From Myxococcales bacterium (lineage in GTDB: Bacteria; Myxococcota; Myxococcia; Myxococcales; Myxococcaceae): a stretch of 64,000 nucleotides of DNA. Below, piece after piece: positions 24,736-59,038 of this stretch. A program made the translations under genes and the position numbers. The stretch lies in assembly GCA_020846875.1 (NCBI GenBank), contig JADLDB010000099.1, positions 1-64,000 of the forward strand, written 5' to 3'. The first letter of the stretch is position 1, and each line of letters opens with the position of its first letter. A model generated the notes under the pieces. The model worked only from the letters and a program-made list of their open reading frames with translations. It searched no databases and was not told the DNA's origin.

Positions 24736-25944
24736 TCAGCGGTACTTGAGGAACCCGCCCAGCACGTCGCGCACCAGGCTGCTCACCGACACGCCGTGCC
24801 GCTTGGCGATCGCCGCCAGTTGCTCGAACTCGCGGCCGCCGACCTGGACAGTGAGCGCCTTGTCGGCGCCGTTGCCCGACGCCGGTAGGTCCGCCACCTC
24901 GCTGATCGGCTCGATGCTGGAGATGATCTCCTCGGCCTCCTCGACGATCTCCTCGGGGCCGGCGGGGCTGCGCAGGGACGCCAGGCGCTCCCGCTCCTCC
25001 TCCAGCTCGTCGTTGAAGAGCTGCTTGAGGAAGTTGGAGAGGTGGATGTTGGACGGGGTGAACTCGTACTGGGAGAGGAACTGGTCCAGATCGTACTGCA
25101 TCTCCCAGGCGGTCTGGTACCGGCGCTCGCGATCCTTCTCCAGCGCCTTCATCAGGATCGCCTCGACCGCCTCGGGGATGTCCGCCTTGAAGTAGCTGGG
25201 CGCGTAGATCTTCCCCTCGGTGATCGACTTGAGGATCGCCACCTCGCTGTCGCCGGTGAAGAGCTTGAAGCCAGTCAACCACTCGTACAGCACCACCCCC
25301 AGCGAGAAGAGGTCGCTGCGGTTGTCCAGCGACTTGCCCATGCACTGCTCGGGCGACATATAGGACAGCTTGCCTTTGATCTCCCCGGCGCGCGTCTGCT
25401 CGATCTGGTTGGCGGCCTTGGCGATGCCGAAGTCCAGCACCTTCACCGTGCCGTCGAAGGACACGAAGATGTTCTCGGGCGTGACGTCGCGGTGCACGAT
25501 GTGCAGCGGGTGCCCGTAGAGATCGGCGCGCTGGTGGGCGTAGTACAGGCCCTCGCACACGCTGGAGGCGATCTTCAGCGCGTACACCATGGGGAACGGG
25601 ATCCCCAGGGCGTCGGCTTTGGGGATGATCCGCCGCATGTCGCGGCCGAAGATGTATTCCATCGCGATGAAGTACGACTCGTTGATCTTCCCGAGGTCGT
25701 AGATCTGCACGATGTTGGGGTGGTTCAACTGCGCCGCCAGCTTCGCTTCGTTGAGGAACATCTTCACGAAGTTGGGCTGCTTGGAGAGGTGCGGGCGGAT
25801 CCGCTTGATGACGATCGTCTTCTCGAAGCCCTCGAGGCCCGCCTGGCGCGCGAGGAAGATCTCCGCCATCCCGCCCACGGCGATACGGTCGACCAGCGTG
25901 TACTTGCCGAAGCGGACGGGCTTCTTTGCTTCCGAGGCGGACAT
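24736..25944 (-). CDS. Hanks-type Ser/Thr kinase with C-terminal ribbon-helix-helix-like domain
   Basis: The 402-residue protein has a complete kinase domain (about 10-290): glycine loop IAVGGMAEIFLAR, K47 in VIKRI, HRDVTPENIF, VLDFGIAKA and MSPEQ. There is no transmembrane helix, so it is cytosolic. An acidic linker (EEIVEEAEEIISSIEP) precedes a C-terminal segment, LTVQVGGREFEQLAAIAKRHGVSVSSLVRDVLGGFLKYR. This reads as strand-helix-turn-helix of the CopG/Arc class. Kinases of this family act on diverse substrates; a fused DNA-binding module would be unusual. It lies 46 bp after gcvP on the same strand. Confidence 0.9.
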   Translation of the reverse strand: MSASEAKKPVRFGKYTLVDRIAVGGMAEIFLARQAGLEGFEKTIVIKRIRPHLSKQPNFVKMFLNEAKLAAQLNHPNIVQIYDLGKINESYFIAMEYIFGRDMRRIIPKADALGIPFPMVYALKIASSVCEGLYYAHQRADLYGHPLHIVHRDVTPENIFVSFDGTVKVLDFGIAKAANQIEQTRAGEIKGKLSYMSPEQCMGKSLDNRSDLFSLGVVLYEWLTGFKLFTGDSEVAILKSITEGKIYAPSYFKADIPEAVEAILMKALEKDRERRYQTAWEMQYDLDQFLSQYEFTPSNIHLSNFLKQLFNDELEEERERLASLRSPAGPEEIVEEAEEIISSIEPISEVADLPASGNGADKALTVQVGGREFEQLAAIAKRHGVSVSSLVRDVLGGFLKYR

Positions 25945-48172: not shown

Positions 48173-48654
48173 TGGCGCTCGATCCGAGGTTCCTCGGCAG
48201 GGAGTACGGCCCCTTCACCTACGAGGTGGGCGTGGAGAAGCTGCGCGAGTTCGCGTACGCGGTGGGCGGCTCCGTGCCGTCGATGGGCTTCTCGGGCGTG
48301 GGGCCTCCGAAAGAGCTCCACCCCTGGCTCCACGACAAGGACGCGGCCGCGCTCTCGCCGTACGGCGCCGTGGTGGCGCTGCCCAACTTCGCGGTGGTGT
48401 ACGCGATCACCCCGTTCTCGAAGGCCTGCACCGATCCCGAGCTGAAGGTGGATCTGTTGCGCCTGGTGCACGGCGAGCAGGAGTTCGAGTTCTTCGAGGT
48501 GGTGCGCCCGGGCGACGTGCTCACCACCCGCGGGAAGATCACCGACCTCTCGTCGAAGAAGAGCCTGGACTTCCTCACCGTCACCACCGAGAGCCACAAC
48601 CAGCAGGGCCGGCTGGTGGTGCGCGCGAAGTGGACCGCGATCATCCGCGGCTGA
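48172..48654 (+). CDS. MaoC N-terminal-type hot-dog protein (HadA-like partner)
   Basis: The 160-residue product has the FAS1_DH/MaoC_N-like layout: GREYGPFTYEVGVEKLREFAYAVG, PPKELHPWL, LVHGEQEFEFFEVVRPGDVLTTRGKITD and VRAKWTAIIR. It lacks the DxNPIH catalytic motif found in its partner. Such pairs form heterodimers that dehydrate 3-hydroxyacyl thioesters. The start overlaps the upstream stop by one base. Its 3' end overlaps the convergent TPR gene by 14 bp. Confidence 0.86.
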   Translation: MALDPRFLGREYGPFTYEVGVEKLREFAYAVGGSVPSMGFSGVGPPKELHPWLHDKDAAALSPYGAVVALPNFAVVYAITPFSKACTDPELKVDLLRLVHGEQEFEFFEVVRPGDVLTTRGKITDLSSKKSLDFLTVTTESHNQQGRLVVRAKWTAIIRG

Positions 48655-50962
48655 TCACGCCTTCGTCCACCAACTGGGCGAGGATCCGTGCCGTGTCCAG
48701 CCGGGACATGCCCGACACGGCGAAGAGATCTTCGAAGGTGACCGTGCCGTCGATCTGCGCCAGCACGAAGCCGGCGCGGTGATCGAGGTTCAGCCAGATG
48801 ATCTCGTCGTCCTTGAGCAGCACCCGGGGGAGCTTCTCCAGGTGCCCCAGCCTGGACTCGAACATCGCCAGGAGGGTGCGCTCGCTGCGCTCCTTGAGCT
48901 GCCGCACCTCGGGCGAGTCGGGGCTCAGCTTCTCGGCCTTGTCGATCAGCTCCATCGCCCCGGTGTGATCGTCGAGATCGAGCAGATCGCGGGCGCCCCG
49001 CAGGATGGTGGCGATCTCGTCCTGCTTCGCCTTCGCGGGATCGCGCTGCACCTTCGAGTCGCTGCTGAGCAGATCCATCGCGCGGTCCGCCCCCACCACC
49101 GCCTCCAGCTTGATGCCGGGGTTGGACCGGAGATCCCACGCCGACTGGGCCTTGGGATCGAGCGTGGGCGAGGGGCGAGGGACCGGCGCCTCTTCGGTGA
49201 TCTGGGGCGGCGTGCTGGACGCCTTCCATTGCCAGGCGCTGTCCGGCGGGGCGTCCGGCTTGCGCGCGAGGCCGGGCGGCGCAGGGGCGCTCAGCAGCGC
49301 GGGGTTGAAGGCCGCCATCGGATCCGGCGCGCCGCCGCTGAACATGGACGGAGTGCCCGGCTCCGCCTCGGGGATGGAGAAGAGCGGCGGCGTGGCCTTG
49401 GGAGGCTCCGGAGGGGGCGCGTCGCCTGTCAGCACCACCGTCTCGGGCGGCCTCGGCGCCTCTTCGCCCGACAGGGAGATCGTCTTCGGCACCGGGTGCG
49501 GCTCGGGCGGCAGCTCCTGCCGCACGTCCTTCGGCAGGGCGAACTGCAGCGTGCCCGATGGCGAACTGGACCGCGCGGGCGCGACCTCCCTGGGCATGGC
49601 GAACTGCTGAGTGCTCCCCGGCTGGGACGGGCTGGAGTACGCGGGCGGCGGCGGCAGCCCGGCGGACGAAGGGGTGGCGGCCAGGCTGTCGGAGCCGGCG
49701 GCGCGCCCGGTGTCCTCGGTGAGGTGGCCCCAGTCCTCGGGCTGCGCTGGAGCAGGCGCCTCTCTCGCGGCGGCGCCCTTCTTCCCCGGGCCTTTCCGGG
49801 CCGCCGGCTTCGGCAGCGGGGCCACGCGCTTGCTGCCCCTGGAGGAGAGGGGGATCTCCTCCGCCTCGTCGGCCAGCTTGTCGAACTCGTCGGCTTCGGC
49901 CTGCGGCTTCACCACCTGCTCCACCGCGGAGGGCCGGGCGAACACCATCGTGCCCGAGGGCGACGACGAGACTTGCGAGGGTGACGACGGTGACGACGCC
50001 GGCGCCTGCCCCAGCGCAGCCCTCACCTCGTCGGGAATGGCGAAGTGCAGAGTGCCGGACGGGGAGCTCGCCTGGGCCGGAGGGGATAGCGGCGTGGCGA
50101 CGCGGCTCGACGGCGACGACTTGAGCGGCCGGCGCTCCACCGGCAGGCTGGTGTCGACGGGGGCCTCCTCGGCCATCGCCTGGAAGTCGTCTTCGGCGCT
50201 GGGCTTCGGGCTGAAGGGCGCCGGCATCGCAGCGAAGCGATCGGTCGCGCCCGGCGGGGCGTCACCCAGGGCCGCCTTCACCTCGTCCGGCATGGCGAAG
50301 GCCAGGGTGCCCGACGGGGAGCTGGCGGCCGACGGCGACGACGCCTGGCGCACCTCGTCGGGCATGGCGAAGCGCAGCGTGCCCGACGGCGAGCTGGACG
50401 CAGGCGCGGCGGCGGCCTGCCGCACCTCGTCGGGCATGGCGAACACCATCGTCCCGGGCGCAGAGGGCGAGGACGGCGCGGCGCCCCTCACCTCCTTCGG
50501 CATGGCGAACTGCGCTGTGGCCTGCGACGGGGAGGTGGAGAAGGCCGGCGGAGGCGGGAGCCCGGCGGCCGAGGGCGCCGCGACCGGGGGGATCACCGGC
50601 GCCACCTTCGGCACCGGAGACTCGGCGCCCGTCATCCGGCCCCAGTCCTGATCGAGGGACGAGTCCCCCGAGCGGAACGGCGCCGGCGTCTTCGTCCCCC
50701 CCGGGCCGGTGACGATCCCCCACTCCCGCTCCACGGCCGACGGAGAGGAGGCCCCGGCGCGCTCGAAGGGGTTGGACGTCTCCGCCGAGGGCGAGGAGGT
50801 GGGCACCTCGCCGGTGGGCGCCGCGAGGAGCTGCCTGGCCTTCTCGTTGCCGGGATCCAGCTTGAGCGCGCGCTCGAACAGGCGTCTGGCGCCGTCGAGA
50901 TCGCCCGACAGCTTCAGCCAGACACCTGCGTCGACGAGCTGTGCCGCGCGCTCCTTGCTCAT
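48641..50962 (-). CDS. TPR protein with arrays of two short linear motifs
   Basis: The 773-residue protein starts with one TPR-like helix pair (to about 45). Residues about 150-480 are low-complexity Ser/Pro/Ala with eight copies of the consensus S-G-T-[LM]-x-F-A-[MLI]-P-x-[ED]-V-[RK]. Three copies of [DE]-W-G-x-x-T lie at about 80, 105 and 405, and the phrase GLPPPPA[FY]S occurs twice. A second TPR segment (about 640-690) and a C-terminal wHTH-like domain (GFVLAQIDGTVTFEDLF...) end it. There is no signal peptide. It starts 3 bp after the DnaK paralogue stop, so it is likely a client or adaptor of that chaperone. Function unknown. Confidence 0.82.
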   Translation of the reverse strand: MSKERAAQLVDAGVWLKLSGDLDGARRLFERALKLDPGNEKARQLLAAPTGEVPTSSPSAETSNPFERAGASSPSAVEREWGIVTGPGGTKTPAPFRSGDSSLDQDWGRMTGAESPVPKVAPVIPPVAAPSAAGLPPPPAFSTSPSQATAQFAMPKEVRGAAPSSPSAPGTMVFAMPDEVRQAAAAPASSSPSGTLRFAMPDEVRQASSPSAASSPSGTLAFAMPDEVKAALGDAPPGATDRFAAMPAPFSPKPSAEDDFQAMAEEAPVDTSLPVERRPLKSSPSSRVATPLSPPAQASSPSGTLHFAIPDEVRAALGQAPASSPSSPSQVSSSPSGTMVFARPSAVEQVVKPQAEADEFDKLADEAEEIPLSSRGSKRVAPLPKPAARKGPGKKGAAAREAPAPAQPEDWGHLTEDTGRAAGSDSLAATPSSAGLPPPPAYSSPSQPGSTQQFAMPREVAPARSSSPSGTLQFALPKDVRQELPPEPHPVPKTISLSGEEAPRPPETVVLTGDAPPPEPPKATPPLFSIPEAEPGTPSMFSGGAPDPMAAFNPALLSAPAPPGLARKPDAPPDSAWQWKASSTPPQITEEAPVPRPSPTLDPKAQSAWDLRSNPGIKLEAVVGADRAMDLLSSDSKVQRDPAKAKQDEIATILRGARDLLDLDDHTGAMELIDKAEKLSPDSPEVRQLKERSERTLLAMFESRLGHLEKLPRVLLKDDEIIWLNLDHRAGFVLAQIDGTVTFEDLFAVSGMSRLDTARILAQLVDEGVISRG
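49518..50540 (-). repeat. Eight FAMP-type linear-motif repeats
   Basis: The motif copies read AQFAMPKEV, MVFAMPDEV, LRFAMPDEV, LAFAMPDEV, LHFAIPDEV, MVFARPSAV, QQFAMPREV and LQFALPKDV, usually after SSPSGT. On the plus strand the shared block gCATGGCGAA recurs near 50030, 50290, 50360, 50430, 50495 and 49590. Spacing is irregular and linkers differ, so selection for the motif rather than recent duplication is likely. Confidence 0.85.
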
Positions 50963-50965
50963 CTC

Positions 50966-52804
50966 TCACCGCCCGATGCGCTGGAGCACGCCCTTGAACA
51001 GACTGATGGTGCGCGTCAGCGTGTCGATGCTCTCGGTCACCCGGGCCAGATCCGCCGCCTCCGACGCCTTGCTGGCCTGCTCCAGCGCCCGGTTGGCCTT
51101 CGAGATCGCGTCCTGCCCGAACTCGGAGCCCCTCGTCGCCTCCTGGAGCTGGGGGATCAGCTCCGTCACCTCCTGGGCCAGGGCCTTGAGCTCGGCCACC
51201 TTCTTCTTCTTCTCCTCCTCGCTCTTCACCTCGAGCAGCAGGTCCGCCTGCTCGTCGAGGATCTTCTTCAGCTCGTCCTCGGTGAGGCCGCCGGACGCGG
51301 TGACCTGAATGGACTGCTGCTGGCCCGTCTCCCGATCCCGCGCCGACACCGACACGATGCCCTCCGAGTTGATGTCGAAGGTGACGTCGATCTCCACCTC
51401 ACCGCGCTTGGCCTCGCGCAGCCCGGTGAGGATGAATTCGCCCAACAGCTCGTTCTGGTGCGCGGCCTCGGCCTCGCCCTGCAGCACCATGATCTTCACC
51501 GTGCTCTGCTGATCCTTGGAGGTGTTGAAGACCTCGGTGACGGACGTGGGCACGGTGGTGTTCCGGGGGATGAGGCGCCGCACGTAGCCGCCGGCGATCG
51601 CCACGCCCAGAGACTGCGGGGTGACGTCCAGCAGCACCACGTCGGTGCCCGCGCCGGTGAGCGCCTCGGCCTGCACCGCCGCACCCAGGGCCACCACCTC
51701 GTCCGGGTGCACGCCCTTGGAGGGATCGCGCCGGAAGTACTCCTTCACCGCGGCCTGCACCGCGGGCATGCGCGTCATCCCGCCGACCAGCACCATCTCT
51801 TTGAGATCGATCGGCTTGACCTTCGCCTCCTCCAGCACCTGCTCGCAGATGGTGATCGCCTTCTTCACCAGCGCGCCGCACATCTCCTCCAACTGCTCGC
51901 GGGTGAGCGTCTTCTGCAGGTGCAGCGCGGCCCCTCCACCCTGGGGAGTGGAGATGAACGGCAGGTTGAGCTGCGTCTCGCGCGCGGTGGAGAGCTCGAT
52001 CTTCGCCTTCTCCGAGGCGTCCTTGAGCCGCTGGAGCGCCATGCGATCGCCCCTCAAGTCGACGCTGTGCTCCTTCTGGAAGTCCGCCACCAGCCAGTCG
52101 ATCACCCGGGCGTCGAAGTCCTCGCCACCCAGGAAGGTGTCCCCGCCGGTGGCGATCACGTCGAAGACGCCGTTACCCACCTCCAGCACCGAGATGTCGA
52201 AGGTGCCGCCCCCTAAGTCGAACACGGCGATCTTCCCGTTGATCGTCCTGCCGAGCCCGTAGGCGAGCGCCGCCGCGGTGGGCTCGTTGATGATCCGCAA
52301 GACGTCCAGCCCGGCGATCTTCCCCGCGTCCTTGGTGGCCTGCCGCTGGCCGTCGTTGAAGTAGGCGGGCACCGTCACCACCGCCTTCTTCACCGGCTTG
52401 CCGAAGAAGGCCTCCGCGTCGGCCTTGAGCTCGCGCAGCACCAGCGCCGAGATCTCCGGCAGCGCGTACTCCCGCTCCCCCAGGTGGATGCGAATGTCGT
52501 CGTGCTCACCCGCGCGCACCCGGTACGGCAGCACCTTGAGCGCTTCCTGCGTCTGAGACGCGGAGAACTTGCGGCCGATCAGCCGCTTCGCCGCGTAGAC
52601 GGTGTCGGTGGGGTTGGTGATCGCCTGCCGCTTGGCGATCGCCCCTACCAGCATCTTCCCGGCCTTCGACACCGCCACCACCGATGGCGTGAGGTTCGAT
52701 CCCGATCGGCTCCGGATGACGACGGGCTGCGTGCCTTGAACGGTCGCGACGACGCTGTTGGTCGTACCTAGATCGATGCCGATGACAGGCTCGCGCTCGG
52801 CCAT
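50966..52804 (-). CDS. DnaK paralogue (Hsp70), StkA/SglK type
   Basis: The 612-residue Hsp70 has both phosphate motifs (IGIDLGTTNSVVA and AVFDLGGGTFDISVLEV), the adenosine motif VLVGGMTRMP and a beta-sandwich substrate domain (DVTPQSLGVAIAGG...VSARDRETGQ). A short helical lid follows, without the acidic EEVD-like tail of housekeeping DnaK. Its setting between a DnaJ-TPR gene (15 bp upstream) and a TPR gene (3 bp downstream), without grpE, matches the kind of dedicated DnaK operon known from Myxococcus xanthus motility and exopolysaccharide loci (stkA, sglK). I cannot tell which it is. Confidence 0.92.
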   Translation of the reverse strand: MAEREPVIGIDLGTTNSVVATVQGTQPVVIRSRSGSNLTPSVVAVSKAGKMLVGAIAKRQAITNPTDTVYAAKRLIGRKFSASQTQEALKVLPYRVRAGEHDDIRIHLGEREYALPEISALVLRELKADAEAFFGKPVKKAVVTVPAYFNDGQRQATKDAGKIAGLDVLRIINEPTAAALAYGLGRTINGKIAVFDLGGGTFDISVLEVGNGVFDVIATGGDTFLGGEDFDARVIDWLVADFQKEHSVDLRGDRMALQRLKDASEKAKIELSTARETQLNLPFISTPQGGGAALHLQKTLTREQLEEMCGALVKKAITICEQVLEEAKVKPIDLKEMVLVGGMTRMPAVQAAVKEYFRRDPSKGVHPDEVVALGAAVQAEALTGAGTDVVLLDVTPQSLGVAIAGGYVRRLIPRNTTVPTSVTEVFNTSKDQQSTVKIMVLQGEAEAAHQNELLGEFILTGLREAKRGEVEIDVTFDINSEGIVSVSARDRETGQQQSIQVTASGGLTEDELKKILDEQADLLLEVKSEEEKKKKVAELKALAQEVTELIPQLQEATRGSEFGQDAISKANRALEQASKASEAADLARVTESIDTLTRTISLFKGVLQRIGR

Positions 52805-53812: not shown

Positions 53813-55006
53813 TCACAGGGAACGCTCGAAGATGGCAAGCCCTTCGCCGAGCTGCTCGCGGGTGGTGACGTAGGCGGGGGCAAAGCGGACCGTCTTCTCG
53901 CCGGCCAGGTTGGCGAGCAAGCCGTTGACCCGGCACCGCGCCAGCACGTCGGCGGCGCCGGTGTCCACCTCGATCCCGAACAGCAGGCCGCGGCCGCGCA
54001 CGTCCTTCACGCGCTCGGGGCGCCGGGCCTTGAGCGCCTCCGCAAGGTCTCGCAGGTGCTCGCCCTTCGCCTCGTTCTCCTTCATCGTCTCGGGGGCGGT
54101 CGCGAGATCCCACGTGGCGCAGGCGGCCGTCGCGGTCACCGGGTTGCCGCCGAAGGTGGAGCCGTGGGTGCCGGACGGTAGCGCCTTGCCCACCTCGTCG
54201 CTGCACACCATCGCGCCGATCGGCAGCCCGTTCCCCAGCGACTTGGCCAGGGAGAAGGCGTCGGGGGTGATCCCCTCGTGCTGGAAGGCGAACGGCTTGC
54301 CGGTGCGGCCGATCCCCGTCTGCACCTCGTCGAGGAGCAGCAACAGCCCGTGCTGCGCGCAGAGCTGCTGGAGGCCGGCCAAGAAGCCCTTCGGCGCGGG
54401 CCGCACCCCGCCCTCGCCCTGGATCGGCTCGACGAGGATGGCCGCGGTCTGCGGGCCGAGGAGGCGCTTCACCGCGTCGAGATCGCCGTACGGCGCGTAG
54501 ACGAAGCCTTGCGGCAAGGGCTCGAAGCCCTGCTGGTACTTGGGCTGCGCGGTGGCGGTGACGGTGGCCAGGGTGCGGCCGTGGAAGCCGCCCTCGAAGG
54601 TGATGATCTCGAAGCGGTCTTTCTGGCCCCGCTCCCGCTGGCACCGGCGCGCCAGCTTGATCAACGCCTCGTTGGCCTCAGCGCCGGAGTTGCAGAAGAA
54701 GGCCCGCGCCCCGGGCAGGCCAGACGCCTTCGTGAGCCGCTCGGCCAGGGCGATCTGCGGCTCGGAGTAGAAGACGTTGGAGACGTGCCACAGCGTGTCC
54801 AACTGCTGCTTCGCCGCGGCGATGACGCCCGGGTGGCAGTGCCCCAGCGCGCAGGTGGCGATGCCGGCGATCAGATCCAGGTACCGGCGCCCCTCGGCGT
54901 CCCACACGTACGCGCCTTCTCCGCGGACCAGCACGACGGGCTGCTGCTTGTAGTTCAGCAGCAACACCTGCTTCGCGCGGGCGATCACCTCGTCGGTGCG
55001 GCTCAT
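53813..55006 (-). CDS. argD: Acetylornithine-type class III aminotransferase
   Basis: The 397-residue PLP enzyme shows LDLIAGIATCALGHCHPGV, NSGAEANEALIKLAR, FHGRTLATVTAT, EPIQGEGGV, LLLDEVQTGIGRTG, the PLP lysine in SLAKSLGNGLP and HGSTFGGNPV. These fit acetylornithine/succinyl-diaminopimelate aminotransferases (ArgD/DapC). Related ornithine or lysine aminotransferases are possible, because no arg gene is adjacent. It lies in a proteostasis run, 13 bp after hslU and 42 bp before the DnaJ-TPR gene. Confidence 0.87.
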   Translation of the reverse strand: MSRTDEVIARAKQVLLLNYKQQPVVLVRGEGAYVWDAEGRRYLDLIAGIATCALGHCHPGVIAAAKQQLDTLWHVSNVFYSEPQIALAERLTKASGLPGARAFFCNSGAEANEALIKLARRCQRERGQKDRFEIITFEGGFHGRTLATVTATAQPKYQQGFEPLPQGFVYAPYGDLDAVKRLLGPQTAAILVEPIQGEGGVRPAPKGFLAGLQQLCAQHGLLLLLDEVQTGIGRTGKPFAFQHEGITPDAFSLAKSLGNGLPIGAMVCSDEVGKALPSGTHGSTFGGNPVTATAACATWDLATAPETMKENEAKGEHLRDLAEALKARRPERVKDVRGRGLLFGIEVDTGAADVLARCRVNGLLANLAGEKTVRFAPAYVTTREQLGEGLAIFERSL

Positions 55007-55019
55007 GGCTTGCTCTCTC

Positions 55020-56390
55020 TTAGAGGATGTACTTCGAAAGATCCTCGTCCTTGACCAGCTCGGTCAGCTTGCGGCGGACGTAGTCGACGTCGACGGTGAC
55101 GTGCTTGTGGGCCAGCTCGGTGGCCTCGAAGGACACCTCGTCGAGCAGCTTCTCCAGCACGGTGTGCAGCCGGCGCGCGCCGATCGACTGGCTGCGCTCG
55201 TTCACCCGCTGGGCCATGGCGGCGATCTCCACCAGCGCGTCGTCGGTGAAGGCCAGCGTCACGCCCTCGGTCGCCAGCAGCGCCTGGTACTGCTTGATCA
55301 GCGCGTTCTTCGGCTCCTTGAGGATCCGCACCAGGTCCTCGCCGGACAGGGGCTCCAGCTCGACGCGGATCGGGAAGCGCCCCTGCAGCTCGGGGATCAG
55401 ATCCGACGGCTTGGACACGTGGAAGGCCCCGGCGGCGATGAACAGCACGTGATCGGTCTTCACCGGGCCGTACTTGGTGTTGACGGTGCTGCCCTCGACG
55501 ACCGGCAGCAGATCCCGCTGCACGCCCTCTCGCGACACGTCCGGGCCCACGCCCTTCGCGCCTTCCCTGCTGGCGATCTTGTCGATCTCATCGAGGAAGA
55601 GGATCCCGTCGTTCTCCGCGCGCTTGACCGCCTCCCGGTTCACCCGGTCCTGATCGATCAACTTGGCGGCCTCCTCCTGCTCGAGCAGCTTCAAGGCCTC
55701 GGGGACGGTGGCGCGGCGGCGGCGGGTGCGGCTGCCCATGCCCGGCATGCCCTTGAACAGGTCCTGCAGATTGACCCCCAGCTCCTCCAGACCCTGCCCC
55801 GAGAAGTTGCGGATGAACATCAGGTTGGAGTCGGACACGTCGACCTCCACCTGCGTGTCGTCCAGCGTCCCGGCGGCCACCTGCGCGCGGAACTTCTCCC
55901 GCTCGGCGTCCGTCAGCCGCGGAGGCGGCGCATTCCCACCCGGCGCCACCCCGAAGGCCCCGCCCTTCGCGCCCCCCAGCTTCACCAGCTCGGCCAGGCG
56001 ATCCTCCGCGTTCTCCTGCGCGCGGGCGCGGACCCGCTGCGTCTCCTCTTCCCGCACCAGAGAGATGGCCGCCTCCACCAGATCCCTCACCATCGACTCC
56101 ACGTCGCGGCCCACGTAGCCCACCTCGGTGAACTTCGACGCCTCCACCTTCACGAAGGGGGCCTGGGCCAGCTTCGCCAGCCGGCGGGCGATCTCTGTCT
56201 TCCCCACCCCGGTGGGGCCCATGAGGATGATGTTCTTCGGGGTGATATCCTCGCGCAGCTCGGGCGCGGCGTTCTGCCGGCGCCACCGGTTCCGCAGGGC
56301 AATGGCCACGGCCCGCTTCGCCGCCGCCTGGCCGACGATGTAGCGATCCAGCTCGCTGACGATCTCCCGCGGCGTCAAAGAAGCGCGCAT
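55020..56390 (-). CDS. hslU: HslU ATPase of the HslVU protease
   Basis: The 456-residue AAA+ unfoldase shows [34 protein letters not shown], Walker [16 protein letters not shown], the intermediate I-domain (about 110-230), Walker [12 protein letters not shown], and the C-terminal [20 protein letters not shown] tail that inserts into HslV. It unfolds substrates for HslV. Its gene starts 4 bp after hslV. Length and motifs are normal. Confidence 0.97.
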
Positions 56391-56394
56391 CGGC

Positions 56395-56913
56395 TCACAG
56401 CTCCTCGAAGCTCAAGTTGGCGTTGGTGTAGATGCAGATGTCCGCGGCGATGCCCAGCGACTGCTCGACGATCTGCTTCGCGGACAGGGACGAGTGCGAC
56501 AACAGCGCCCGCGCCGCCGCCAGCGCGTACGGCCCTCCGCTGCCCACCGCGGCGATCCCGTGATCCGGCTCCACCACGTCGCCCGCGCCCGAGAGGATGA
56601 AGGTCTTCTCCTTGTCCGCCACCACCAGGAGCGCCTCCAGCTTCCGCAGGTAGCGATCGGTGCGCCAGTCCTTGCCCAGCTCCACGCAGGCCCGCGCCAG
56701 GTTCTGCTGGTACTCCTTCAGCTTGGCCTCGAAGCGCTCGAAGAGGGTGAAGGCGTCGGCCGTCCCGCCCGCGAAGCCGGCGATCACCGAGCCGTCGGAC
56801 AGGCGCCGCACCTTCCGGGCGGAGCCCTTCATCACCGTCTTGTCCAGGGTGACCTGGCCGTCGCCGCCCAGCACCGTCTTGCCGTCGCGGCGAACGCAGA
56901 GAATGGTCGTCAT
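56395..56913 (-). CDS. hslV: HslV peptidase subunit
   Basis: The 172-residue product is a proteasome-like peptidase. After removal of Met the N-terminal Thr of [21 protein letters not shown] is the nucleophile. [27 protein letters not shown] and [14 protein letters not shown] follow the family. ATG 56913 is required to expose that Thr, so the longer upstream frame is not used. First gene of the minus-strand run to 48.6 kb. The 64-bp gap to the divergent lipoprotein gene holds its promoter, in which I see no clear heat-shock consensus. Confidence 0.96.
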
Positions 56914-56977
56914 GGTCGCGCGGGTACTTAACAGCCCGGCCGCCCGTTTGCTCCCGGCCGGTGTAGATCTGCTGCCC

Positions 56978-59038
56978 ATGCGCCGAGCCACCCTGCCCGC
57001 CCTGCTGTTCCTCGCGTCGGCCTGCAGCAGCGGTCCAGCGCCGTGCGGCCCTTCCTCCTGCTCGGGCTGCTGTGATCCTTCCGGCGCCTGCGTGACGGGC
57101 GATTCCAGCGCCGCCTGCGGGCGCGGCGGTGCCGCGTGCCTCGAGTGCCTCGGAGGCTCGTGCACCCAGGGGATGTGCCAGGGGACCGGCGGCGGCGGCG
57201 GCACCGGAGGCGGAGGCGGAGGCGGTGGCGGCGCGGTGGGGCCCTGCGACGTGGACAACGGTGGCTGCGACGCGGTGGCCACCTGCACCCCTTCTGGATC
57301 CACCCGCGCCTGCGCCTGCCCCGCCGGCTCCGAGGGCGACGGGCTGACCTGCTCGCCGCGGCTCTCGGCGCTGACGGTGACGCCCGCGTCCCTGGCGCCC
57401 CTCTTCTCGCCGGGCGTGACCAGCTACGTGGCGTCGGTGCCGTACTCGCAGACGCTGGTGACCGTCACCGCGGCCACCGCCGCGCCTGGGGCCACCCTCC
57501 TCATCGACGGCCAGCCCATGAGCTCGCGGATGATCCCCCTCGCCGCCCCCACCCGCCCGGTGGCGATCACCGTGCGCTTCGACGCCACCCAGCGCAGCAC
57601 GCCCTACTCGGTGCTGCTCACCCGCGCGCGCCGCACGGTCCAGCAGGGCTACCTGAAGGCCGAGGTGCCCGCGATGGGCGACGGCTTCGGCTCCTCGGTA
57701 GCCATGTCCCGCGACGGCAACACCCTGGTGGTGGGGGCGCCGTCCGACGATGGGCCCGGTGGGGCGGTGTCGAATGGCGGCGCGGCCTTCGTCTTCCTCC
57801 GCATCGCGGGCACCTGGACCTTCGTCACCGCGCTGCGGGCCTCCAACGCGGGCGCGGAGGACGGCTTCGGCACCAGCGTCGCGATCTCGGCGGACGGCCA
57901 GACGATCGCCGTGGGCGCGCCGAAGGAGGACTCGGACGGCACCGGCGGCGGCAACGACGCGCGGCCAGACTCGGGCGCGGTGTACGTCTTCCGGCGCGAC
58001 GCCGGGGGCTGGAGCCAAGAGGCGCTCCTCAAGGCTGCGGTGGTGGGCAGCGGCGACGGCTTCGGCGCCAGCGTGGCCCTCTCAGGCGACGGCGCGGTGA
58101 TCGCCGCCGGCGGCCCCGACGAGGACAGCGCAGCCCGAGGCCTCGACGGCGACGCGACGGATGAGACGGCGACGTCGGCGGGCGCGGTGTGGGTGTTGGC
58201 GAAGAGCGGCTCCGCCTGGGCGCAGCAGGCGTACGTGAAGGCGTCCAACACCGGCGCGCAGGATCGCTTCGGCGCCGCGGTGGCCCTCAACGACGACGGC
58301 ACGGCCCTGGTAGTGGGCGCCACCGGCGAGGCGAGCAACGCGCGCACCATCGACGGCGCGCCGGAAGACGACTCGGCCCCCAACGCGGGCGCCGCCTACG
58401 TCTTCCGCAAGGGCGCGGCCTGGGCGCAGGAGGCGCGCCTCAAGGCGTCCAACAGCGGCGCGGGCGACGTCTTCGGGGCGTCTGTCTCCGTCTCCGGCGA
58501 CGGCCAGCGCGTCGCCGCGGGCGCCTGGGGGGAAGACTCTGGCCGGGTGGGGATCAACGGCCCCGACGACGAGGCCGCAGATCTCTCCGGCGCGGCCTAC
58601 GTCTTCGTCCGGGAGTCGGGCACCTGGCGGCAAGACGCGCGGCTGAAGGCGTCCAACGCGGATCCGGGCGATCGCTTCGGACAGGCGGTGTCCTTCTCAC
58701 GCGACGGCGCGGGCCTCCTCGTCGGCGCGCAGGCCGAGGCCAGCAACGCGCTGGGGCTCGATGGCGACCAGTCCATGAACAACGTGCTGTCCGCCGGCGC
58801 GGCGTACCTCTTCGGCAGGACGACGGCTGGCTGGGTGCAGGAGGTGTACGTCAAGGCGTCCAACACGGGCGTGGCGGACACCTTCGGGAAGTCCGTGTCC
58901 CTGGCGGGGGACGGCGTGTCCTTCGTCTGCGGCGCCCCGGCGGAGGCGTCCAACGCCGGCGGGGTGAACGGCAACCAGGCGGACGACTCTGCGCCCGGCG
59001 CGGGCGCGGCGTACGCCTTCACCCGGCTGCCTCTGTAG
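56978..59038 (+). CDS. Surface lipoprotein with EGF-like module and seven-repeat FG-GAP propeller
   Basis: The 686-residue protein has a lipoprotein signal (FLASAC, Cys16), a Cys-rich stretch, a poly-Gly linker and an EGF-like module ([14 protein letters not shown]...[14 protein letters not shown], about 88-125). A cadherin-like beta-sandwich (about 128-215) is followed by seven FG-GAP repeats of the form DxFGxSVxxSxDGxxxxVGAPxEDS (about 225-680). These would make one integrin-type seven-bladed propeller. Such propellers mediate surface or cell contact; the ligand is unknown. ATG 56978 gives the signal peptide; upstream frame overlaps hslV antisense. Converges with the Smr gene (5-bp gap). 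Confidence 0.88.

Follow-up and report, generated by a model that had tools for sequence, protein, structure and literature searches.

The 773-residue protein described here is best read, from its sequence and gene context, as the third member of a chaperone cluster found across the phylum, the other two being a J-domain/TPR protein and a DnaK paralogue. Between its conserved ends lies a linker with a repeated threonine-centred motif, T-x-x-F, and we tentatively propose that this scaffold may present an array of pT-x-x-hydrophobic docking sites bound by FHA domains. The gene family is unnamed and undescribed, conserved, mostly single-copy and usually located directly behind dnaK. The member under study lies in the window, the 64,000-nucleotide stretch of a Myxococcales genome (contig JADLDB010000099.1, positions 1 to 64,000) that was analysed, where the minus strand reads hslV, hslU, argD, dnaJ/TPR, dnaK and the focal gene (Table 1).

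The open reading frame is real, as the initial annotation had it, with G+C by codon position of 0.69/0.58/0.92, a strong third-position bias, and an N-terminal TPR segment recognized by Pfam. The 3-bp gap reported after the DnaK paralogue gene was also confirmed, and the description of the protein as encoded with its own DnaK and DnaJ-TPR is right for an old arrangement found across the phylum. Family relatives retain the gene order as far as their contigs extend, except for losses in groups g3, g7, g20, g23 and g8, and outside the family dnaK lies upstream of the focal gene in 19 of 20 loci, the twentieth being cut by a contig end.

Relatives conserve both ends of the protein, namely the N-terminal TPR-like segment and, at the C terminus, the TPR with the wHTH-like domain. 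The linker is not conserved and ranges in length from 45 to over 600 residues. Both TPR-like segments are single (residues 12-47 and about 642-705), with fewer than three consecutive repeats. No Pfam or NCBIfam family spans the whole protein, and a search of a plasmid collection gave no match. Two AlphaFold models, built with 12 sequences, reached mean pLDDT values of 65 and 59. The C-terminal wHTH-like domain named in the initial annotation is weakly backed: 13 of 29 relatives match HTH_Crp_2 (best 5e-4; 17.8 bits, the cut-off being 27), and its helices are modelled at pLDDT 78-81, with the strand part under 50. No fold was assigned to this part from either model, and a fold search with the first model gave matches mainly to its TPR part. 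The PDB profile search returned mostly TPR repeats, and the wHTH alone retrieved nothing credible and no solved relative by sequence. A PqqD/RRE-like resemblance, considered on the basis of its sequence pattern, had no Pfam match listed. Just ahead of the C-terminal TPR, the linker of relatives such as L002, L005 and L032 has another conserved phrase, SAWDxRSNPGIKL, which reads SPWDDGP in outgroups.

Table 1. Features of the chaperone cluster and of the 773-residue protein (window positions).
Feature	Position	Strand	Evidence
TPR / disordered linker / TPR / wHTH-like protein, 773 aa	48641..50962	(-)	ORF; ATG at 50962, stop at 48641
C-terminal wHTH-like domain, about residues 706-773, most conserved part	48644..48847	(-)	HTH_Crp_2 in 13/29 relatives, alignment
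C-terminal TPR-like helices, about residues 642-705	48848..49039	(-)	AlphaFold helices, pLDDT about 83-86; Pfam TPR in 20/29 relatives
T-x-x-F motif 8 PSGTLQFALPKDVRQE	49514..49561	(-)	
T-x-x-F motif 7 PGSTQQFAMPREVAPA	49574..49621	(-)	
GLPPPPAYS phrase, residue 435	49634..49660	(-)	
WG motif 3, W411, WGHLT of DWGHLT	49718..49732	(-)	
T-x-x-F motif 6 PSGTMVFARPSAVEQV	49913..49960	(-)	
T-x-x-F motif 5 PSGTLHFAIPDEVRAA	50015..50062	(-)	
T-x-x-F motif 4 PSGTLAFAMPDEVKAA	50270..50317	(-)	
T-x-x-F motif 3 PSGTLRFAMPDEVRQA	50342..50389	(-)	
T-x-x-F motif 2 APGTMVFAMPDEVRQA	50414..50461	(-)	
T-x-x-F motif 1 SQATAQFAMPKEVRGA	50480..50527	(-)	
GLPPPPAFS phrase, residue 134	50537..50563	(-)	
WG motif 2, W107, WGRMT of DWGRMT	50630..50644	(-)	
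WG motif 1, W81, WGIVT of EWGIVT	50708..50722	(-)	
N-terminal TPR-like segment, residues 1-47, kept in relatives	50822..50962	(-)	Pfam TPR_14 9e-9 and alignment
DnaK paralogue, 612 aa, ends GVLQRIGR, without disordered C-terminal tail	50966..52804	(-)	Pfam HSP70 1.2e-203; NCBIfam
J-domain/TPR protein, 316 aa	52820..53770	(-)	Pfam
ArgD-like aminotransferase, operon neighbour, kept in relatives	53813..55006	(-)	Translation
HslU, operon neighbour, kept in relatives	55020..56390	(-)	Translation
HslV, 172 aa from internal ATG of longer ORF	56395..56913	(-)	172-175-aa gene at the same place in relatives

The eight T-x-x-F copies start at residues 146, 168, 192, 216, 301, 335, 448 and 468 and have T-x-x-F-A-x-P-x-x-V in common. 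The consensus first given for them, SGT[LM]xFA[MLI]PxEV, was correct as to eight related copies and too strict in its lettering, which only three of the eight fit exactly; the three [DE]WGxxT and two GLPPPPA[FY]S copies are present as described. These counts far exceed those of composition shuffles: T..F occurs 9 times (0.85 expected), T..[FY][AGS] 9 times (0.32) and [DEQN]WG 3 times (0.05), and none of 400 shuffles reached the observed values. In a proteome background of 977 genes, called from the window and about 1.2 Mb of the same genome, the protein stands out most strongly, no other gene carries a motif array, and GLPPPPA is limited to it. Elsewhere in the genome the DNA pattern for T[LM]xFAxP occurs at six places as isolated single motifs. 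Motifs 2-4 sit within an imperfect 72-bp tandem repeat (50279-50483), identical codons occur between copies only slightly more often than expected (167 against 142), and the invariant threonine is coded in four ways (ACG, ACT, ACA and ACC). The imperfect repeat and the varied threonine codons indicate that the array grew partly by duplication, with its core kept at the protein level.

A profile of the C-terminal 178 residues matched 85 of 96 genomes of the same family, with one match apiece, and 152 of 193 genomes sampled across the phylum, nearly all with a single match. The exact FAMP form was absent from the orthologues read and was seen in the source genome alone, and a conserved FAMP motif in the literal sense, as the initial annotation had implied, therefore fails. 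What its broader claim of motif conservation within diverged linkers correctly anticipated is a looser, Thr-centred core, Thr-x-x-[Phe/Tyr/Leu] and then either Phe or a small residue, which is kept across genera in one to about nine copies as the rest of the linker changes. On this comparison of sequences, T-x-x-[F/Y/L] is the older core and FAMP the source genome's local form of Thr-x-x-Phe.

The core is dressed differently in each lineage, as TQEFGLP, TMQFARP, TTLQLF or TLVFG. For instance, in the corresponding place L002 has KTTLQLF and RTTQQLF, L005 RSTMVFSG, L008 SGTQQLFPEP, L010 GGGTMQFARP, L012 STLVFG, and L124 GGTTLPFAQRP. L124 also contains near-identical tandem units. In Myxococcus-like (g19) and Corallococcus-like (g6) genomes the linkers are short, at 90-130 residues, yet T[QD]E[FY]G[VLI]P persists once or twice directly in front of the C-terminal TPR, with two to three acidic residues per site; the tandem type ascribed to the M. 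xanthus orthologue reads GDTDEYGxPxGxTQEFGLP. In the phylogeny, the T..F core occurs mainly in a grouping of the Myxococcaceae with two neighbouring families (support 91/83), and the arrays change 7 times, at least 2 of these changes being forced. In shuffle tests T..F was not enriched in dnaK-linked outgroup orthologues. All groups tested, the outgroups among them, showed enrichment of the WG motif. The g21 orthologues L091 and L092 have another repeat, TTGAIPLPP / STGPVPLPP, which likewise combines a threonine with a hydrophobic residue at +3; there the threonine offset scan lies only slightly above expectation.

The core is specific for threonine. At the residue three positions before [FY][AGS] or [LIFM]F in 24 linkers from motif-bearing lineages, Thr was counted 93 times against 9.1 expected and Ser 2 times against 13.8, although the sequences are related and hence not independent trials. 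With one sequence per lineage the counts were 57 against 6.0 for Thr and 3 against 9.8 for Ser, and 7 of 12 lineages individually fell below p = 0.005. Likewise, shuffles showed enrichment of T..F, and not of S..F, in the window, long-linker relatives, Myxococcus-like and Corallococcus-like genomes. Since the site pattern itself fixes the hydrophobic residue at +3, independent support for that position comes from an offset scan, in which +3 was highest or tied after Thr in the window, Archangium-like genomes, L010-L047, Myxococcus-like genomes and g26, but neither highest nor tied in Corallococcus-like genomes or L124/L126.

FHA domains are highly specific readers of phosphothreonine (PMC3146460), and the +3 residue sets their specificity (PMC6733907, PMC5549992). 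A Thr-only site with a hydrophobic +3 is the kind of signature on which FHA phosphothreonine readers rely, which favours FHA domains as readers. In the mechanism that we propose, the two short TPR-like segments and the C-terminal wHTH-like domain would form a constant body, and the disordered linker between them would serve as a docking strip. Some of the many Hanks-type kinases in the cell would phosphorylate the linker threonines, FHA domains would bind the resulting pT-x-x-hydrophobic sites, and phosphorylation would tune how many FHA-bearing partners gather at the Hsp70 system, with the separate WG motif contacting DnaK or DnaJ. The further step, in which a kinase/FHA network recruits or tunes the dedicated DnaJ-DnaK pair through the number of occupied pT-x-x-F sites, is more doubtful. 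More copies would mean stronger binding, which would explain why copy number changes as the core stays; arrays have also changed often, and part of the copy number may therefore be drift.

The source genome offers both kinds of component, with 62 FHA matches and, above the family cut-off, about 137 kinase matches, and relatives of 2.1-2.7 Mb still have 16-24 FHA matches. Outgroup families without motif enrichment also carry FHA domains (15 in G155). No kinase or FHA gene was found adjoining the locus, and no phosphoproteome record for the protein was found in the literature. The only kinase among the window genes scanned is a Ser/Thr protein kinase gene at 24736-25944 (Pfam Pkinase 2.6e-37), about 23 kb from the locus. 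Myxobacterial genomes encode dozens of FHA domains and more than 100 kinases each, with few known ligands, and a Thr-specific motif repeated in one protein family offers a convenient peptide bait for finding readers. If the proposal is true, it would link bacterial Ser/Thr signalling to an Hsp70 system.

The threonine preference may have other reasons, for example an extended backbone, and the strongest alternative to the phosphothreonine reading is that T-x-x-F is a phosphorylation-independent linear motif for a groove-type domain, possibly the TPR of the protein itself or of the J-protein, with Thr serving shape or hydrogen bonding. The conserved core and the multivalency are consistent with such a motif, as is the presence in both proteins of TPR segments, which are often peptide binders; the near-exclusion of Ser is less natural without a phosphothreonine reader, and we consider this alternative unlikely. 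Neutral repeat slippage in a disordered spacer would account for the tandem repeat under motifs 2-4, the near-identical units of L124 and the wide range of linker lengths. As the main origin of the array it is nevertheless improbable, given that the core recurs across genera in unrelated flanks, that Thr is kept through different codons and that one or two copies survive in the short Corallococcus-like and Myxococcus-like linkers.

The initial annotation had proposed a multivalent peptide-binding partner and named both FHA-type domains and the neighbouring DnaK; the former are good candidates on the grounds given above, while DnaK is disfavoured. Pseudo-substrate sites that tether or regulate the chaperone would fit two genes paired 3 bp apart throughout the phylum, and some versions (KTTLQLF) resemble a hydrophobic stretch beside a basic residue. 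DnaK binding sites, however, usually avoid acidic residues, and the Myxococcus-like and Corallococcus-like copies are acidic; moreover, group g23 retains TDRFPA[FV] with both dnaJ and dnaK missing from the locus, and dnaK-linked outgroup orthologues lack motif enrichment, all of which makes DnaK a very doubtful reader. The lowest probability among these alternatives goes to a protein that acts mainly as a transcription regulator, in which the wHTH would bind DNA and the linker and TPR would form a sensor arm for chaperone load. The wHTH-like C terminus is better conserved than any other part and matches a Crp-type HTH in the relatives mentioned above, but that match is weak, the strand part is modelled with low confidence and sequence searches revealed no solved structure related to the domain. 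By eye, a beta-clamp motif (QL[SD]LF) was rejected for the TTLQLF versions: they have Thr in place of the key Gln, and the TQEFGLP forms do not match this motif either.

For the WG motif, lineages without the chaperone genes at the locus are informative. In g3, g7, g20 and g23, dnaJ and dnaK are missing between argD or hslU and the focal gene, and a search of eight genomes with such loci revealed no full-length dnaJ/TPR orthologue elsewhere. The focal gene survives there with a reduced linker (L093-L095 in g23; L096-L101 in g3, g7 and g20). The g3, g7 and g20 linkers contain neither T..[FY] nor WG, a single WG in L098 lying upstream of the probable start; an ITADVLAFLSE-like stretch is common to five of the six loci read (L096-L100). 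The three g23 relatives, which have small genomes, lost WG and kept TDRFPA[FV]. The WG motif was found in none of nine linkers without dnaK at the locus. Enrichment of WG in all groups tested, together with its absence where dnaK is missing from the locus, fits WG as a DnaK or DnaJ contact and T..F as serving something else. Because linker shortening is a confounder and there were perhaps only two or so independent losses, this putative contact is a lead. One g8 genome (L212, G036:C2:1183500-1193500) shows the dnaJ/TPR gene retained behind hslV-hslU-argD, with dnaK absent from the locus, an esterase-like gene next and the focal TPR/wHTH gene not found in the genome.

The proposed docking strip resembles the FHA ligand tails of GarA/OdhI and Bdellovibrio DgcB in having a disordered stretch, a conserved Thr and a hydrophobic +3 residue; these tails are read by an FHA domain when phosphorylated, and the self-ligands of GarA, OdhI and DgcB, with which three M. 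xanthus FHA-GGDEF proteins have been aligned, share hydrophobic residues at +2 and +3 (PMC6733907). Whereas those are single sites acting on the FHA domain of the same protein, the present family has up to nine putative sites and its protein no FHA domain. It also resembles TPR co-chaperones such as Sti1/Hop, Cpr7 and P58IPK in its TPR helices and in being co-encoded with DnaK and a J-protein, and the top structural neighbours of its TPR part are Hsp70/Hsp90 TPR co-chaperones, with Z up to 11, as is often seen among helical repeats. It differs from them in having a single TPR-like segment at either end, a long disordered strip and a wHTH, and its partner DnaK ends in QRIGR and thus offers no EEVD tail for a TPR clamp.

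In Myxococcus xanthus, MXAN_3016 is a DnaK without a C-terminal tail and MXAN_3015 a J-protein; strains lacking MXAN_3016 sporulated less and survived oxidative stress less well, and of the two DnaKs tested MXAN_3015 bound MxDnaK1 but not MxDnaK2 (PMC8265645, PMC11019930). Judging by their adjacent locus numbers, their roles and the absent C-terminal tail, they are probably the orthologues of the pair described here. No mention of a third gene beside them was found in the papers searched, and the present family, if the two are orthologues as they seem, provides a third gene to study.

Three minor observations concern the surroundings of the locus and its motifs. The J-domain/TPR protein ends in KKRWAF and its g8 orthologue in RKARWPF, a possible C-terminal aromatic tag. 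On the plus strand, an FG-GAP repeat/EGF/cadherin-like gene occupies 56660-59038; its longest ORF overlaps hslV in antisense, and the true start probably lies further in. Besides the focal protein, a search for T[HQDE][DE][FY]GxP retrieved one enzyme, stray frames and a recurrent lipoprotein-like family with a TEE[YF]GLPVxHL-type phrase (TEEYGLPVFHL), found in Myxococcus-like and Corallococcus-like genomes (L106, L112, L114, L115, L117 and L118).
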